Source of the DNA: Microbacterium album
GTDB lineage: Bacteria > Actinomycetota > Actinomycetes > Actinomycetales > Microbacteriaceae
Assembly: GCF_014643695.1 (NCBI RefSeq)
Contig: NZ_BMJY01000001.1
Coordinates: forward strand, 186,001 to 250,000
Direction of reading: 5' to 3'
Length of the DNA: 64,000 nt
Shown here: positions 17,788-25,652 of the stretch, in pieces
How positions within the stretch are numbered: the stretch's first letter is position 1
Layout: each line of letters opens with the position of its first letter
The notes under the pieces: model-generated
Databases searched by the model: none
What the model saw: the letters and a program-made list of their open reading frames with translations, nothing else
Told to the model about the DNA's origin: nothing
Position numbers and translations under genes: made by a program

Positions 17788-18831
17788 GTGGCAAGGGCGT
17801 GGGTGATCAGGGCCGGCCGTTACGGTGAGCGCGAGGACTGGGCGCTTGAGCATGGGTTTTCGGGCGGCGGATGGTCGGAGCTACCGGACCTGACACCGTA
17901 CGAATCGCGCGAGCAGATCGCTGAACTCGTGGCCAGGGTTCACGCGGACAACCCCAAGGCGCACGCGAACTACACCGGCCAGCTCTACGCACTACGCTCA
18001 CGCGTGCAGCCTGGCGACCTGCTCGCGTTGCCGTTGAAGAGTGGTAGCGGCACGATCGCGCTCGGCAGGGTCACTGGCGGTTACCGGTACCTCGGAGATG
18101 ACATGCCCGCGGATCGCCGCCACGTGGTGGAGGTGGATTGGAGGGTCACGGACCTGCCGCGGACCGCGGTCAAGCAGGACCTCCTCTATACGCTTGGGAG
18201 CGCGCTGACGATCTTCGCTCCGTCGCGGGGCGCGGCGGAGGAGCGCCTGGAGGCGCTGATGCAGACGGGCGCGGATCCCGGGCAGCTCGCGATCACCAGC
18301 TCGTCGAAGGCGACCCGGGCGGCGACGAATGACGACGATGTCGATGACCCGGAGACGCAGACTGATCTGCTCGAGGTTGCTCGCGACAGGATTATGACGC
18401 GCATCTCGGAGGAGTTCGTGGGCGACGGACTGGAGGTCCTCGTCGCGGCGATCCTCGAAGCCGAGGGATTCGTGTGCAGGAAGTCGCCGATCGGCGCGGA
18501 CCGCGGGATCGACGTGATCGCCGGTCGCGGCGTGCTCGGCATGGACTCGCCTCGCGTGGTTGTGCAGGTGAAGTCGGGCGGGCAGGTGTCGGACGCCGTC
18601 GTCCGTGACCTGAGCGGCGTCGTCCACGAGCAAGGCGCTGATCACGGGCTGCTTGTCGCGTGGGGCGGACTCACGAGGCCGGCAAAAGACACGGTGTACA
18701 AGCAACAATTCCGCCTCAGAGCCTGGACCGCCGAAGAAGTCGTCGACGCCGTGCTCCGCACGTACGATCGCCTGCCGGACGACATCCAGTCGCGTCTTCC
18801 GCTCAAGCGAGTGTGGGTCCTGGCGGACTGA
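17788..18831 (+). CDS. Mrr-type restriction endonuclease with N-terminal PUA/EVE-like domain
   Basis: 347 aa. The C-terminal domain (about 205-325) is a Mrr-type PD-(D/E)xK nuclease in its QxK form: GIDV (D242) then VVVQVKSG (Q260, K262). The N-terminal domain (about 1-120; WVIRAGRYGERE, KPGDLLALPLK-like, GRVTGGYRY) belongs to a family often fused to such nucleases and probably reads modified bases or nucleotides. A variable linker of about 60 residues lies between them. This suggests a modification-dependent (type IV) restriction enzyme. GTG start with GGGAGAAGGGAG. It stands directly upstream of the type I operon. Confidence 0.85.
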   Translation: MARAWVIRAGRYGEREDWALEHGFSGGGWSELPDLTPYESREQIAELVARVHADNPKAHANYTGQLYALRSRVQPGDLLALPLKSGSGTIALGRVTGGYRYLGDDMPADRRHVVEVDWRVTDLPRTAVKQDLLYTLGSALTIFAPSRGAAEERLEALMQTGADPGQLAITSSSKATRAATNDDDVDDPETQTDLLEVARDRIMTRISEEFVGDGLEVLVAAILEAEGFVCRKSPIGADRGIDVIAGRGVLGMDSPRVVVQVKSGGQVSDAVVRDLSGVVHEQGADHGLLVAWGGLTRPAKDTVYKQQFRLRAWTAEEVVDAVLRTYDRLPDDIQSRLPLKRVWVLAD

Positions 18832-18951
18832 CACCTCGTCGTTCGTGGATCTCGTCTGAGGTCCGTGAGAGTATCCCTCAGTTACCCGGACACATCGATC
18901 CGAGGAGCCGCGAGTCACCCGCGAGCACCATCCCCCAAGGAGCAGACCCGC

Positions 18952-20532
18952 ATGACCCCTACAACAAAGGAAGCCCAGCGCGCTGAGCTGCACAAGGCGA
19001 TCTGGCGTATCGCCAACGACCTACGCGGCTCGGTGGACGGGTGGGACTTCAAGAGTTACGTGCTCGGCATGCTCTTCTACCGGTTCATCTCCGAGAACCT
19101 CACCGCATACATCAACAGGGGAGAGCACGACGCCGGCGACGAGTCCTTCGACTACGCGAAGCTGCCCGACGACGAGGCGGAGTTCGTCCGGCGTGACGTC
19201 GTTGCGGAGAAGGGCTTCTTCATCCTCCCGAGCGAGCTGTTCGTCAACGTGCGCCGTCGTGCCGCTCACGACGAGAACCTCAACGAGACGCTGGAGCGGG
19301 TGTTCAAGAACATCGAGGGTTCCGCGCTCGGCACCGACTCCGAGGATGACCTGAAGGGGTTGTTCGACGATCTCGACGTCAACAGCAACAAGCTCGGCTC
19401 CACCGTCGCCCGTCGCAACGAGAAGCTCGTGAAGCTGCTGGATGCCATCGGCGACCTGCCGCTGGGCCGCTTCGAGGACAACTCGATCGACCTGTTCGGC
19501 GACGCCTACGAATACCTGATGCAGATGTACGCCGCGAACGCGGGCAAGTCTGGCGGTGAGTACTACACGCCGCAGGAGGTCTCCGAGCTGCTGGCGCGCA
19601 TCGCGGTCTCGGGCAAGAAGTCCGTCAACAAGGTCTACGACCCGGCCGTCGGCTCGGGCTCGCTGCTGCTGAAGTTCGCCAAGGTGCTCGGCAAGAACAA
19701 CGTCCGCCAGGGGTTCTACGGCCAGGAGATCAACCTGACCACGTACAACCTGGCGCGGATCAACATGTTCCTGCACGACATCAACTACGCCGACTTCAAC
19801 CTCGCCCACGGCGACACCCTGACCGAGCCAGCCCACCGGGATGACGAGCCGTTTGAGGCGATTGTCTCCAACCCCCCGTACTCGATCCGCTGGGACGGAG
19901 ACGCGGATCCGCTGCTCATCAACGACGATCGGTACGCGCCGGCAGGCGTGCTGGCGCCGAGATCGAAGGCCGACCTCGCCTTCACAATGCACATGCTCAG
20001 CTGCCTAGCCGTCAACGGCACCGCTGCGATCGTCGAGTTCCCTGGGGTGCTGTACCGCGGGGGAGCGGAGCAGAAGATCCGCAAGTACCTGATCGACAAC
20101 AACTACGTCGACGCCATCATCCAGCTGCCGCCAGACCTCTTCTTCGGCACCACCATCGCGACCTGCATCCTGGTGCTCAAGAAGTCGAAGAAGACCAGCG
20201 ATGTCCTGTTCATCAACGCCTCTGGCGAGTGCAAGCGCGTGGGCAACAAGAATAAACTGCTACCGGGCAACCAGCAGAACATCCTCAGCGCCTACGAGCT
20301 CCGCGAGGACGAAGACCACTTCGCCAAGCTGGTGAGTAACGAGGACATCGCGGCCAATGGCTACAACATCGCCGTGTCGTCCTACGTCGAGGCTGAGGAC
20401 ACGCGCGAGGTCGTGGACATCCAGGCGCTCAATGCCGAGATCGCGCGCATCGTCGCGCGTCAGACTGAGCTGCGCAGCTCTATCGACGAGATCGTCGCTG
20501 ATCTGGAAGCGGGTGGACATGCGGCTGTCTGA
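18952..20532 (+). CDS. hsdM: Type I restriction-modification methyltransferase subunit
   Basis: 526-aa N6-adenine methyltransferase. N-terminal HsdM helical domain (IANDLRGSVDGWDFKSYVLG, characteristic of the EcoR124/type IC group), SAM motif I DPAVGSGSLL from D230, catalytic NPPY at 307-310, C-terminal coiled region that contacts HsdS. The ATG at 18952 has AAGGAG at 18937-18942; a longer frame to 18865 has no good site. It overlaps the DUF4145-like gene by 14 bases. Partners: hsdS and hsdR downstream. Confidence 0.95.
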   Translation: MTPTTKEAQRAELHKAIWRIANDLRGSVDGWDFKSYVLGMLFYRFISENLTAYINRGEHDAGDESFDYAKLPDDEAEFVRRDVVAEKGFFILPSELFVNVRRRAAHDENLNETLERVFKNIEGSALGTDSEDDLKGLFDDLDVNSNKLGSTVARRNEKLVKLLDAIGDLPLGRFEDNSIDLFGDAYEYLMQMYAANAGKSGGEYYTPQEVSELLARIAVSGKKSVNKVYDPAVGSGSLLLKFAKVLGKNNVRQGFYGQEINLTTYNLARINMFLHDINYADFNLAHGDTLTEPAHRDDEPFEAIVSNPPYSIRWDGDADPLLINDDRYAPAGVLAPRSKADLAFTMHMLSCLAVNGTAAIVEFPGVLYRGGAEQKIRKYLIDNNYVDAIIQLPPDLFFGTTIATCILVLKKSKKTSDVLFINASGECKRVGNKNKLLPGNQQNILSAYELREDEDHFAKLVSNEDIAANGYNIAVSSYVEAEDTREVVDIQALNAEIARIVARQTELRSSIDEIVADLEAGGHAAV

Positions 20533-21331
20533 ATTGCTTTCAAAAGCACCGAGCGTCATCTCCGCGCAGGTCGAAGGCTTTCTTGACGATCGCCCGCTCG
20601 CCTGGGGCAAGCACAAGAAGATCAAAGTGGGCAAGATATTCCACAACTTCCATTGCCGCGGCTGTGGTGATGTGCGTACCTTCGAATCGGGTGAGGAGCT
20701 CTACTGTCTCGGTTTAGGTGCTGAGCAGATCAGCATCGACGCAACGTTGCGATGTATGGTCTGTAAGGCCTCTGTGGAAGCTTGGTTTCTCGTCAGTGCT
20801 GACGAGAACATCTCTGGGCGCGCCCCCGAAGTCCGCGTTGACCGCTATGCCGAGAACCTTCGAGATCGGGCGGACCGAATTGGAGCTGTCGACGGTCCCT
20901 TCGCGGACCTTGTCAAACGTGCTCAGCTAGCCTACGAGTGTGGCCTCGGCGCGGGCGCTGTCATTTATCTGCGCAAGATCTTCGAGAAGATCACATGGGA
21001 AGTTGCCGACCTCGTCGGGGTGGAGACCAAGAAGCCAAACGGCAACCCTCGTCCGTTCGCTGCTGTGCTCAAGGAGGTGAACGATCAGCGAATGATCATC
21101 CCGCAGCGGTTTTCGAGTGATGGATACCATCTATTTAGTGAACTTAGTGGGATCATTCACGGTGACTCAAGCGAGACGGAGGCGCTAGAGAAGTTCAAGC
21201 CGTGTCTTCAGCTCGTGCTCGGCGTTGTTGAGGAGGTTAGCCGGGACAATAAGGTCGCCAAGGCGATCGAGGACCTTGGTTGGAACGTCGACGTAATCAA
21301 CGCAATCGCCGAAAAGGAGGACGCCGCATGA
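20519..21331 (+). CDS. Zinc-ribbon DUF4145-like protein inside the type I operon
   Basis: 270-aa protein of unknown function. The N-terminal half has two CxxC pairs (CRGCG and CMVC), a likely zinc ribbon; the C-terminal half (ECGLGAGAVIYLRKIFEKI, then SSDGYHLFSELSGIIHGDSSE) matches DUF4145, an all-helical domain often found beside restriction genes. It overlaps hsdM by 14 bases and hsdS by four (ATGA), so it is made with the complex. An in-frame GTG at 20513 is an alternative start. Base composition is clearly lower in G+C than the flanking chromosome. Possible roles: modulator of restriction, or DNA sensor. Confidence 0.75.
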   Translation: MRLSELLSKAPSVISAQVEGFLDDRPLAWGKHKKIKVGKIFHNFHCRGCGDVRTFESGEELYCLGLGAEQISIDATLRCMVCKASVEAWFLVSADENISGRAPEVRVDRYAENLRDRADRIGAVDGPFADLVKRAQLAYECGLGAGAVIYLRKIFEKITWEVADLVGVETKKPNGNPRPFAAVLKEVNDQRMIIPQRFSSDGYHLFSELSGIIHGDSSETEALEKFKPCLQLVLGVVEEVSRDNKVAKAIEDLGWNVDVINAIAEKEDAA

Positions 21332-22497
21332 ATCGCCTCGGTGAGCTTATCTCGGAACTTGCGCCGAGCGGTGTGCCGTATCTTGCTCTGGGTGACGTCG
21401 CTCGCTATTCAGACACGCGGGTGAATGCGTCTGAACTTGACGAGACGAACTTCGTTGGCGTTGGCAACTTGGTCGCAGATAAGGGCGGTCGTGTCGACGC
21501 GAGCCACCCGCCGAACAGCGCGCGTCTGACTGCGTACGAGCCGGGCGACATTCTCATAGGCAACATCCGTCCATATCTTAGGAAGGTCTGGCGCGCGACG
21601 AACGCGGGGGGCTGTAGCGGGGATGTCCTCGCTATTCGTATCGCGCAAGAGTGTCGCGAATCACTTAATTCTAAGTTCCTCTACTACTTGTTGTCCTCCG
21701 ACGGATTCTTCGCGTACAACATGCGACACGCGAAAGGTGCCAAGATGCCACGCGGCGATAAGCTAGCCATCTTGAGTTTTCGAATTCCCGTCCCGCCTAT
21801 CGAGATTCAGCGCGAAATTGTGGCAGTATTGGATAGGTTCACTCAGCTGGAAGCGGAGCTCGCAGCGCAGCTCGCAGTGGAGCTCGCAGCGCGGCGCGCT
21901 CAGTACTCGTATCATCTGCGGTCTGCTGTTTTGCCCGCAGGTGATATAGCTTGGACGACGCTTGGCCAGGCCACGCTCAACCACGATCGGAAGCGGAGGC
22001 CCGTCACGCGAGCTGACCGTCAGGACGGTGAGTTCCCATACTATGGTGCGAATGGTATTCAAGACTACGTCCACGACTTCCTCTTCGACGGAACCTTCCT
22101 ACTCGTCGGTGAAGATGGAAGCGTAAAGAACCGGGATGGGACTCCGATTCTCAATTGGGCTTCGGGTAAGATCTGGGTGAACAACCATGCGCATGTGCTG
22201 ACTGCTGCGAGCGAAGAGTTTAATCTGCGCTATCTGTACTACTACCTGGCGACGGTAGACGTTACGGCGTACGTCACTGGCGGCACCCAACCGAAAATCA
22301 ATCAGCGGAATCTGAACAAGATTCCTGTGCCCGTTGTGCGGCGAGAGTTTCAGGACCGGGTCGTCATCATGCTGGATAAGTTCGACGCCCTCGTCAATGA
22401 CATCAGTAACGGTCTCCCGGCTGAGCTCGCTGCGCGTCGTAAACAATACGAGTACTACTGCGACCGCTTGCTGACCTTCAAGGAGCTCGCGGCATGA
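21328..22497 (+). CDS. hsdS: Type I restriction-modification specificity subunit
   Basis: 389-aa DNA-recognition subunit with two target-recognition domains (about 15-165 and 205-345), each followed by a conserved helical spacer: LDRFTQLEAELAA...ARRAQY in the middle and LDKFDALVNDISNGLPAELAARRKQY at the C-terminus, the type IC (EcoR124-like) pattern. The middle spacer holds three 4-residue repeats (ELAA, QLAV, ELAA; residues 177-188). AAAAGGAGG precedes the ATG. G+C is low (a 60-base sample at 21661-21720 counts to about 43%), as usual for mobile specificity genes. Target sequence unknown. Confidence 0.95.
   Translation: MNRLGELISELAPSGVPYLALGDVARYSDTRVNASELDETNFVGVGNLVADKGGRVDASHPPNSARLTAYEPGDILIGNIRPYLRKVWRATNAGGCSGDVLAIRIAQECRESLNSKFLYYLLSSDGFFAYNMRHAKGAKMPRGDKLAILSFRIPVPPIEIQREIVAVLDRFTQLEAELAAQLAVELAARRAQYSYHLRSAVLPAGDIAWTTLGQATLNHDRKRRPVTRADRQDGEFPYYGANGIQDYVHDFLFDGTFLLVGEDGSVKNRDGTPILNWASGKIWVNNHAHVLTAASEEFNLRYLYYYLATVDVTAYVTGGTQPKINQRNLNKIPVPVVRREFQDRVVIMLDKFDALVNDISNGLPAELAARRKQYEYYCDRLLTFKELAA
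21856..21891 (+). repeat. Three 12-base tandem repeats in the hsdS spacer
   Basis: GAGCTCGCAGCG, CAGCTCGCAGTG, GAGCTCGCAGCG: units 1 and 3 identical, unit 2 differs at two positions. In frame they code ELAA-QLAV-ELAA. In EcoR124 the number of 12-base (TAEL) repeats at this same place sets the spacing of the two half-sites recognised, so a copy-number change here could switch specificity. Confidence 0.9.
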
Positions 22498-25400
22498 GTG
22501 ACGCGCCTGCTCGCAAGTACGACCCGATCGCCGTCTCCGCCGAGAGCACAGTTGTCGCTGAGTACGTTCCGGATGCTCCCGTCGAGTATGCCTACCAGTC
22601 GGAGGCCGCGCTCGAGCGGGAGATGATCCGTCTGCTCGAGGCGCAGGCGTACGAGTATCTGCCGGTGAGCTCCGAGGCGCAGCTCGTCGCTAACCTCCGT
22701 TCCCAGCTTGAGGCGCTCAACAACTTCACGTTCTCGGATGCCGAGTGGGACGTGTTCTTCTCGACGCGCATTGCCGGGCGCAACGACGGCATCGTCGAGA
22801 AGACCCTGCGCATCCAGGGAGACCACGTCCAGACCCTCAAGCGGGATGACGGGGCGACCAAGAACATCTCCCTCATTGACAAGAAGAACGTCCACAACAA
22901 CCGTCTGCAGGTCATCAACCAGTACGAGATGGCCAAGGGCGACGAGCGCGACGGCGGCGGCAACTATGCCAACCGCTACGACGTGACCGTGTTGGTCAAT
23001 GGCCTCCCGATGGTCCATGTCGAGCTGAAGCGCCGCGGCGTCGACATCCGTGAGGCGTTCAACCAGATCGACCGCTATCAGCGCGACAGCTTCTGGGCGG
23101 GCTCCGGCCTCTTTGAGTATGTGCAACTGTTCGTCATCAGCAACGGCACGCTGACGAAGTACTACTCCAACAGCACCCGCGCCAAGCACCTCAAGGAAGC
23201 GAGCGCCAAGCCTGGCCGCGGCAAGCAGTCGAGCAACTCGTTCGAGTTCACCTCGTGGTGGGCGGACGCGCAGAATAGGCCGATCCAGGATCTGACGGCC
23301 TTCGTCAAGACGTTCTTCGCCAAGCACGCTCTGCTCAACATCCTCACGAAGTACTGCGTGCTGACGGTCGACCGTGACCTGCTGGTCATGCGCCCGTACC
23401 AGATCGTGGCGACCGAGCGGATCCTGCAGAGGATCGCGATCGCTACCAACTACAAGAAGCTCGGCACGATCGAAGCCGGTGGCTATGTCTGGCACACCAC
23501 AGGCTCGGGCAAGACCCTGACTTCGTTCAAGGCCGCGCAGCTCGCCTCAAAGCTGCCAGACGTCAGCAAGGTGCTCTTTGTCGTCGACCGCAAGGACCTC
23601 GACTACCAGACTATGCGCGAGTACGACCGGTTCGAGAAGGGGGCCGCCAACTCGAACGCGTCGACGGCGGTCCTCAAGGCGCAGCTGGAGGATCCGAACG
23701 CTCGGATCATCATCACGACGATCCAGAAGCTCGCCACGTTCATCAAGGCGAACAAGGGGCACGAGATCTACTCAGGCCACGTCGTGATCATCTTCGACGA
23801 GTGCCACCGCTCGCAGTTCGGCGACATGCACGCGGCCATCACGAAGGCGTTCAAGCGCTACAACCTGTTCGGTTTCACCGGCACCCCGATCTTCGCCGCC
23901 AACGCGGACACGGGCGGCAACCCGACGCTTCGCACCACGGCGCAGGCGTTCGGCTGCTTCCTGCACGGCGACCCCGCGACGTGCCCGCCTGAGGCGCACC
24001 AGATGGCCATCCACACCTACACGATCGTCGACGCGATCACCGACAAGAACGTGCTGCCGTTCAAGATCGACTACGTCAACACTGTGAAGGTCGGCACCGT
24101 CATCGACAAGCAGGTGCCCGCCATCGACGCCGAGAAGGCGCTGCTGGATCCGCGCCGCATCCGCGAGATCGTGAAGTACACGCTCGAGCACTTCGACCAG
24201 AAGACCAAACGCGACGTCGCCGGCTACGAGCACTCAATCGTCACCAACGTCGCCGAGTCTGTCCGTGCCCGCCGGGCAATCGAAGCCATCCGCGAGAAGA
24301 AGCGAGTCCGGGGCTTCAACGCCCTGTTCGCGACGGCATCGATCGATGCTGCGCGTCGCTACTACAACCAGTTCCAGATCCAGATGGAGGAGCTGCCGGC
24401 CGATCGGCGCCTGAAGGTTGGGCTAATCTTCTCCTACGGAGCCAATGACGCAGTCGACGACGGGATCCTCGACGACGAGGCGTTCGAGACCGACGCCCTG
24501 AGCATGGACGTTCGAAGCTTCCTCGAGGACGCCATCCAGGACTACAACCACATGTTCGGGACGAGCTATGACACAAGCTCGGACAAGTTCCAGAACTACT
24601 ACAAGGACCTGTCGCAGCGGATGAAGAACCGCGAGATCGACCTGGTCATCGTCGTGAACATGTTCCTCACCGGCTTCGATGCCACCACGATGAACACCCT
24701 GTTCGTCGACAAGAACCTCCGCGCTCACGGCCTTATTCAGGCCTACTCGCGCACCAACCGCATCCTCAACTCCGTCAAGACTTACGGGCACATCGTCGCC
24801 TTCCGCGACCTTGAGGAGGAGACCAACGCTGCGCTCGAGCTGTTCGGCAACAAGGACGCTCGCGGCGTCGTGCTGCTCAAGCCGTTCGGTGACTACTACA
24901 CCGAGTACGCCGACAAGGTCACCGAGCTGCTCGAGAACTTCCCGCTCGGACAGCAGATCATCGGCGAGGCCGCGCAGAAGCAGTTCATCCAGCTGTTCGG
25001 CGCCATCCTGCGCCTGCAGAACATCCTGACCTCGTTCGATGAGTTCGCCGACCAGGACCCACTCACCGAGCGGCAGCACCAGGACTACCGCAGCGTCTAC
25101 CTCGATCTCTACGCCGAGTGGCGCCCCAAGACCGACGGCGACAAGGAACTGATCAACGACGATGTCGTCTTCGAGATCGAGCTCGTCAAGCAGGTCGAGA
25201 TCAACGTCGACTACATCCTCATGCTCGTCGAGAAGTACCGCAGTTCGTTCGGCGACGGAGAGAACAAGGAGATCCGCGCCGAAATCGCGCGCGCCGTCGA
25301 CGCGAGCCCGAGCCTGCGCAGCAAGCGTGACTTGGTCGAGAACTTCGTCGACTCGGTTTCTGTGGACGGCACGGTCGATGAGCAGTGGAGTGCGTTCGTT

Positions 25401-25652
25401 GCTGCGAAGCGCGAGGCGGAGCTCAACGCGATCATTGAGCAGGAGAACCTCAAGCCTGACCAGACGCGTGAGTTTGTCGATACTGCGTTCCGAGATGGCC
25501 AGCTGCGGACGACGGGCACCGAGATCACACGCATCCTGCCGCCTGTGTCCCGCTTCAACCGGGTCGCTGGCCACGGCGAGAAGAAGAAGCGCGTCGTCGA
25601 GGCCCTGGCGCGGTTCTTCGAGCGGTTTGCAGGACTCGGGACTGGGGACTAG
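22494..25652 (+). CDS. hsdR: Type I restriction enzyme, nuclease-translocase subunit
   Basis: 1052-aa HsdR of the EcoR124 group. N-terminal PD-(D/E)xK nuclease (VHVELKRRG; E177 and K179), SF2 translocase with Walker A HTTGSGKT (334-341), DECH box (435-438), FTGTPIF, MFLTGFDA and LIQAYSRTNRI, then a helical C-terminal domain that binds the methylase core. ATGA overlap with hsdS. All motifs are intact, so the system looks functional. Confidence 0.96.
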   Translation: MSDAPARKYDPIAVSAESTVVAEYVPDAPVEYAYQSEAALEREMIRLLEAQAYEYLPVSSEAQLVANLRSQLEALNNFTFSDAEWDVFFSTRIAGRNDGIVEKTLRIQGDHVQTLKRDDGATKNISLIDKKNVHNNRLQVINQYEMAKGDERDGGGNYANRYDVTVLVNGLPMVHVELKRRGVDIREAFNQIDRYQRDSFWAGSGLFEYVQLFVISNGTLTKYYSNSTRAKHLKEASAKPGRGKQSSNSFEFTSWWADAQNRPIQDLTAFVKTFFAKHALLNILTKYCVLTVDRDLLVMRPYQIVATERILQRIAIATNYKKLGTIEAGGYVWHTTGSGKTLTSFKAAQLASKLPDVSKVLFVVDRKDLDYQTMREYDRFEKGAANSNASTAVLKAQLEDPNARIIITTIQKLATFIKANKGHEIYSGHVVIIFDECHRSQFGDMHAAITKAFKRYNLFGFTGTPIFAANADTGGNPTLRTTAQAFGCFLHGDPATCPPEAHQMAIHTYTIVDAITDKNVLPFKIDYVNTVKVGTVIDKQVPAIDAEKALLDPRRIREIVKYTLEHFDQKTKRDVAGYEHSIVTNVAESVRARRAIEAIREKKRVRGFNALFATASIDAARRYYNQFQIQMEELPADRRLKVGLIFSYGANDAVDDGILDDEAFETDALSMDVRSFLEDAIQDYNHMFGTSYDTSSDKFQNYYKDLSQRMKNREIDLVIVVNMFLTGFDATTMNTLFVDKNLRAHGLIQAYSRTNRILNSVKTYGHIVAFRDLEEETNAALELFGNKDARGVVLLKPFGDYYTEYADKVTELLENFPLGQQIIGEAAQKQFIQLFGAILRLQNILTSFDEFADQDPLTERQHQDYRSVYLDLYAEWRPKTDGDKELINDDVVFEIELVKQVEINVDYILMLVEKYRSSFGDGENKEIRAEIARAVDASPSLRSKRDLVENFVDSVSVDGTVDEQWSAFVAAKREAELNAIIEQENLKPDQTREFVDTAFRDGQLRTTGTEITRILPPVSRFNRVAGHGEKKKRVVEALARFFERFAGLGTGD

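Follow-up and report, generated by a model that had tools for sequence, protein, structure and literature searches.

The number of repeats in a helix of the specificity subunit HsdS is a simple, published route by which a restriction system can alter its recognition site. The hsdS gene of a type I system in Microbacterium album carries an array of 12-base units at the corresponding place, and this raises the question of whether the number of units still changes or was set in the past. The window analyzed here is a stretch of 64,000 nucleotides that includes the whole operon. It is likely that the array is a ruler in the spacer helix of a type IC system, and that it was adjusted in the past, was interrupted, and is now largely fixed.

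The operon and the place of the array in HsdS

The host genome is 3.39 Mb in size with a GC content of about 71% (400 kb sampled). In the same genus, genome G171 and Microbacterium sp. T32 have HsdS ORFs of equal length with identical TRD1 sequences (loci L007 and L085). The operon has the gene order hsdM, a 270-amino acid ORF, hsdS, and hsdR, all on the plus strand (Table 1). The hsdS product matches Pfam Methylase_S (8.8e-29) and PADLOC Specificity_I (3.5e-92). Judging from its translation, hsdM may actually begin at the ATG at 18952. Features of type IC membership are found: a complete set of hsdM, hsdS, and hsdR is present, and HsdR has the C-terminal domain of EcoR124. The whole genome gives a single HsdS match at E <= 0.001, a threshold that a very divergent HsdS could escape. 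Switching by inversion or by multiple hsdS genes was rejected because of this single match and because the locus is without long inverted repeats (the longest arms are 27 nt at 74%, among the 25 pairs listed out of 28).

Table 1. Features of the hsd operon and its repeat array, with positions in the window.
Feature	Position	Strand	Remarks
hsdM, type I methyltransferase subunit	18865-20532	+	TIGR00497 hsdM 3.1e-222; N6_Mtase and HsdM_N; longest ORF
270-aa ORF between hsdM and hsdS	20519-21331	+	overlaps each neighbor by a few bases
hsdS, type I specificity subunit, 389 aa	21328-22497	+	TRD1, central helix with tetrad array, TRD2, C-terminal helix
Fourth, more diverged tetrad unit QLEA, first in array	21844-21855	+	CAGCTGGAAGCG
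Three 12-base units, ELAA-QLAV-ELAA, aa 177-188	21856-21891	+	GAGCTCGCAGCG / CAGCTCGCAGTG / GAGCTCGCAGCG
14-base exact repeat, copy 1	21855-21868	+	offset 24 from copy 2
14-base exact repeat, copy 2	21879-21892	+	offset 24 from copy 1
hsdR, type I restriction subunit	22494-25652	+	EcoR124_C 1e-74, HSDR_N, T1R_D3-like; TIGR00348 hsdR

Searches of Pfam, NCBIfam, and PADLOC with the 270-amino acid protein gave no match, and plasmids gave none at E 1e-5. The ORF is present in four of the 366 genomes of the genus (this one included), always directly upstream of hsdS, and the order hsdM-ORF-hsdS is found in three genomes of the genus besides this one. Two CxxC pairs are invariant across the four aligned sequences, and the structure prediction is weak (mean pLDDT 59.6). 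The GC content is 0.56 in this ORF and 0.57 in hsdS versus 0.62 in hsdM and hsdR, and the GC3 values are 0.66 for the first pair and 0.89 for the second. The lower values between 20519 and 22497 suggest a separate origin of that part of the operon. Just 5' of hsdM, the ORF at 17788-18831 resembles Mrr_cat restriction nucleases, and in PADLOC it is matched by PDC-S02, a candidate defence family (E 1.9e-130).

The preliminary description placed the repeats where EcoR124 carries its TAEL units, and this position is supported by sequence, homologs, structure prediction, and linker length. The closest solved sequence found by phmmer is EcoR124 HsdS (7bst), whose linker LDKFTALTAELTAELNMRKKQY is in the same frame as the linker here, LDRFTQLEAELAAQLAVELAARRAQY. 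The latter has 26 amino acids, the length found in proteins with three TAEL units; after EcoR124I and EcoR124II, linkers of 22 and 26 amino acids are classed as two and three units. In the AlphaFold model a single unbroken helix is predicted for residues 158-200 and takes in the whole array, for which the block pLDDT is 82. L182 is invariant among 31 aligned HsdS proteins, and L178 and L186 are nearly so. When the model is compared with solved HsdS chains, 7vs4_C (Z 24.4) and 5ybb_D (Z 24.2) lead, and 7bst_A ranks eighth (Z 19.0, rmsd 5.2, 345 residues). Since other HsdS chains match better and the model pTM is 0.65, the model does not point to EcoR124 in particular, and the pTM also makes the orientation of the HsdS domains uncertain.

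Repeat units and evidence for their copying

The DNA reads ELAA-QLAV-ELAA directly, as had been described, and the array is longer than that description by the QLEA tetrad in front. There are four tetrads in all, degenerate in sequence with the leucine spacing kept. Units 1 and 3 of the ELAA-QLAV-ELAA run are identical, unit 2 differs by two bases, and all three have the codons CTC-GCA. Several relatives in the genus and family (for example, loci L082 and L083) have a first unit identical to the QLEA unit CAGCTGGAAGCG. Tandem Repeats Finder (TRF) reports the array with period 12 at 21852-21891 (score 66) and with period 24 at 21844-21899 (score 77). In 464 kb of this genome, made up of the window and all 20 background stretches, 52 TRF rows score at least 66 and 36 score at least 77, where rows may overlap. 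The DNA repeat was therefore rejected as a genome-wide rarity, as many arrays in this GC-rich genome score as high. The array is distinctive for its place within HsdS rather than for its DNA repetition.

Homologous arrays carry a record of unit copying. In the AELE frame, units share 11.90 of 12 bases within arrays versus 10.43 between arrays (43 arrays). The corresponding values are 11.94 and 9.87 in the AELT frame (32 arrays), 11.71 and 10.15 in the ELEA frame (44 arrays), and 11.67 and 9.99 in the ELTA frame (29 arrays). The window was excluded from these comparisons, and none of 1000 shuffles was as high in any frame. The relatives thus have array-specific synonymous codons, which points to copying of units. 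Judged by these codons, the homologous arrays are under concerted evolution, of the sort that slippage or unequal exchange would give. The codons of the window array are unusual among its relatives. Among 125 leucine-containing units from 38 other arrays of the genus and family, CTC is found six times and GCA is not found at the corresponding place; the count took only units with leucine second and includes a few divergent linkers. The simplest reading, in which one changed CTC-GCA unit would have been copied along the window array, is supported by these counts, and with it past turnover of the array.

Two other origins of the likeness between units were weighed. If the protein alone were under constraint, the coiled coil would require leucine at each fourth position, and codon bias would account for the DNA likeness. 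The leucines are indeed kept while other positions vary. However, the three units have a pairwise DNA identity of 32/36, and synonymous resampling with the protein fixed seldom reaches this value (P = 0.0016 with codons of the restriction-modification operon, P = 0.0065 with host-gene codons, the table for the latter combining the window with a single one of the 20 background stretches). The same resampling of all four units gives P = 0.0014 and 0.012, respectively. GCA accounts for 8% of the alanine codons in the operon, yet it stands at the same place in all three units, and the synonymous codons of the relatives also speak for copying. An explanation by protein constraint is disfavoured, and we consider it very improbable. 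Alternatively, the central region with three LA-type units could have been imported as a block from another hsdS, with the copying of units having happened elsewhere. HsdS genes are described in a review as shuffling domains (PMC3874165), hsdS and the preceding ORF are lower in GC than hsdM and hsdR, and the nearest sampled relatives of TRD1 and TRD2 are in different organisms. Against such an import, relatives within the genus have exactly the same first unit, and DNA similarity to the genome G072 continues past the end of TRD1 and reaches into the array (80% up to about 21872), making this origin quite unlikely. Under the preferred reading, that of a ruler adjusted in place, slippage or unequal recombination would have spread an ancestral CTC-GCA unit through the array, and the repeat would afterwards have been broken up by point mutations that left the leucine ladder untouched (E to Q, A to V).

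Slippage potential and variation in Escherichia coli

The array had been called slippage-prone, and this part of the description does not hold up. The units are interrupted by the E-to-Q and A-to-V changes, and the longest exact run at a 12-base offset is 9 bases, which ranks 36th among 46 homologous arrays of the same length. Exact runs of 28-39 bases are reached by 28 of these 46 arrays. The uninterrupted tract that is a feature of phase-variable hsdS genes with simple tandem repeats is absent. Judged from the sequence, a phase-variation label thus fails on repeat purity. At an offset of 24 bases there is a longer exact repeat, and its two 14-base copies are possible endpoints of a two-unit deletion. 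Because the exact run is 14 bases at offset 24 versus 9 at offset 12, a rare two-unit loss would be likelier than a one-unit step. The 14-base repeat is close to the 16-base run of two-unit E. coli arrays that do vary, so the array here is not immune to change.

Arrays in E. coli provide a yardstick. The chromosomal allele L136 has 49 records with at least 80% cover, which are not independent (one strain is present twice); 43 have the two-unit length, four are longer by 12 bases, and two are shorter by 12 bases. Four of the six length variants were read and have 0, 0, 1, and 0 other mismatches, and the breakpoints of the two short ones differ. For the plasmid allele L138, 60 of 362 records were sampled and lengths were taken from spans; 53 of those sampled reach at least 80% cover, and they divide into 30 of three-unit length and 23 of two-unit length. 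One three-unit record in this sample is 89.8% identical, and one two-unit record is cut at 87% cover. The E. coli plasmid hsdS genes L137 (101-1372) and L138 (101-1384) were read and are identical except for one 12-base unit. Both of their lengths are common among the sampled records. Among E. coli hsdS genes that are otherwise identical, the number of units is thus one, two, or three, showing that clean arrays vary in nature. An interrupted E. coli array was also searched as a comparison for stability, and only 2 of its 67 records have at least 80% cover. Half-gene matches in the same list are about 95-97% identical, and their spans, from which the lengths were judged, either equal that of the query or exceed it by 12 bases.

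This natural variation is an argument for an active switch at the locus, in which frequent gain and loss of units by slippage would give populations that mix cells with different methylation gaps. Variable copy number is likewise reported for Mycoplasma pneumoniae and Neisseria gonorrhoeae. However, the array in M. album is interrupted, and its 9-base run at offset 12 compares with a run of 16 bases in E. coli arrays of two units and of 28 bases in those of three. An active switch is therefore unlikely. With the repeat interrupted by later mutations, the ruler that we favor is expected to be largely fixed, and we infer from the sequence that the array now probably changes rarely. Any rare losses of 24 bases, that is, of two units, would be likelier than 12-base steps. 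The array has kept the helix spacing and has lost the purity of the DNA repeat. The clean E. coli genes that differ by one unit and the interrupted array here offer a direct comparison that is testable in the laboratory.

The same hsdS was also sought elsewhere. No second genome with it was found among 366 genomes of the genus and 398 of the family, which are overlapping sets with one genome per species from which very near records may be omitted. The best full-length HsdS proteins in the genus and family are 54-55% identical. A megablast search of phages gave no near-identical copy of the locus among the records returned, where very near records may be omitted. In plasmids there are four records with 75-79% DNA identity over 16-39% of the region, none of them near-identical. 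The exact 36-base pattern has no match in viral contigs, where five distant relatives were found; very near records may likewise be missing from the plasmid and viral sets.

Unit number as a proposed ruler

Among published systems with tetrad repeats in HsdS, EcoR124I and EcoR124II are described in a review as having two and three TAEL units and gaps of N6 and N7, respectively (PMC3874165). NgoAV of N. gonorrhoeae has zero to three LEAT repeats, and one or two units correspond to a gap of N6 or N7 (PMC6789123). In M. pneumoniae a 12-base unit varies between strains in six of the seven hsdS genes (PMC4537597), and the number of units also varies between passages of one strain (PMC4537597; also PMC8836594). 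The repeats of type IC systems include TAEL, LEAT, SEAL, and TSEL (PMC10030836).

The M. album system resembles EcoR124I and EcoR124II (EcoR124/3) in having tetra-residue repeats encoded by 12-base units in the first connecting helix of HsdS, in the three-unit length class, and in the EcoR124_C domain of HsdR. It differs in that the units are ELAA, QLAV, and ELAA rather than perfect TAEL, with the DNA interrupted, and in the extra ORF between hsdM and hsdS. It shares tetrad repeats in the center of HsdS with NgoAV, in which copy number varies between strains, whereas the system here is known from one genome. Like the M. pneumoniae hsdS genes (AELS/TELS), it has a 12-base unit in the first dimerization helix. 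In contrast, M. pneumoniae has several hsdS genes and a copy number that varies by strain or passage, up to dozens of units, while M. album has one HsdS match and three interrupted units. The type IC features examined are all present, and by analogy the system would work like the published repeat-ruler systems. With each tetrad the helix separating the two target-recognition domains would lengthen by about one turn, so that the number of units would set the gap of the bipartite recognition site, as published type IC work indicates. Three units would then give the longer, EcoR124II-like gap. A more speculative extension, which is conceivable and rather doubtful, is that the ruler has become locked. 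Point mutations that spare the leucines would break the repeat and fix a useful gap length, and the 24-base repeat would allow mainly a jump from three units to one. If this were true, the jump would skip the intermediate specificity, and interruption would be a selectable way of ending type IC phase variation.

Linker lengths in relatives follow the tetrad. A regular expression without a length rule found linkers in 96 of 129 homologous ORFs, and the other 33, without a linker match, were dropped. The length is 2 mod 4 residues in 95 of the 96, and in all 96 once two over-long matches are trimmed. Lengths range from 14 to 50 amino acids: 14 (two linkers), 18 (two), 22 (44), 26 (46), 38 (one), and 50 (one). 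The comparisons of TRD1 described below took only linkers of 2 mod 4 residues (18 of 138 loci had no such linker and were dropped), so they give no support for a periodicity of four residues.

Unit number appears to be nearly independent of the first recognition domain. Among pairs with TRD1 80-90% identical, 17 of 31 differ in unit count, and 8 of 27 do so among pairs with TRD1 at least 90% identical; these pairs are not independent, as near-copies are included (for example, L131-L134 and L161-L163) and the doubtful zero-unit row L103 is counted. A TRD1 tree of 115 rows (five of 120 were dropped beforehand, and L103 is excluded) requires at least 39 changes of unit count, versus a mean of 42.3 when counts are shuffled, and 31 of 200 shuffles are as low. 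In this tree 33 of the 107 inner branches have less than 80% support and several branches are long, and unit count is without clear clustering on it. By TRD1 the window is nearest to L003, L084, L082, and L083 (72-74% identical); these four have two units each, and the window has three. Over the full length, its nearest relative in the family is L143 (55%), which has three units. Two proteobacterial HsdS genes, L008 (4001-5254) and L004 (4001-5194), have TRD1 sequences that are 87% identical, with nine perfect units in the former versus one in the latter, and they form an extreme pair for ruler testing.
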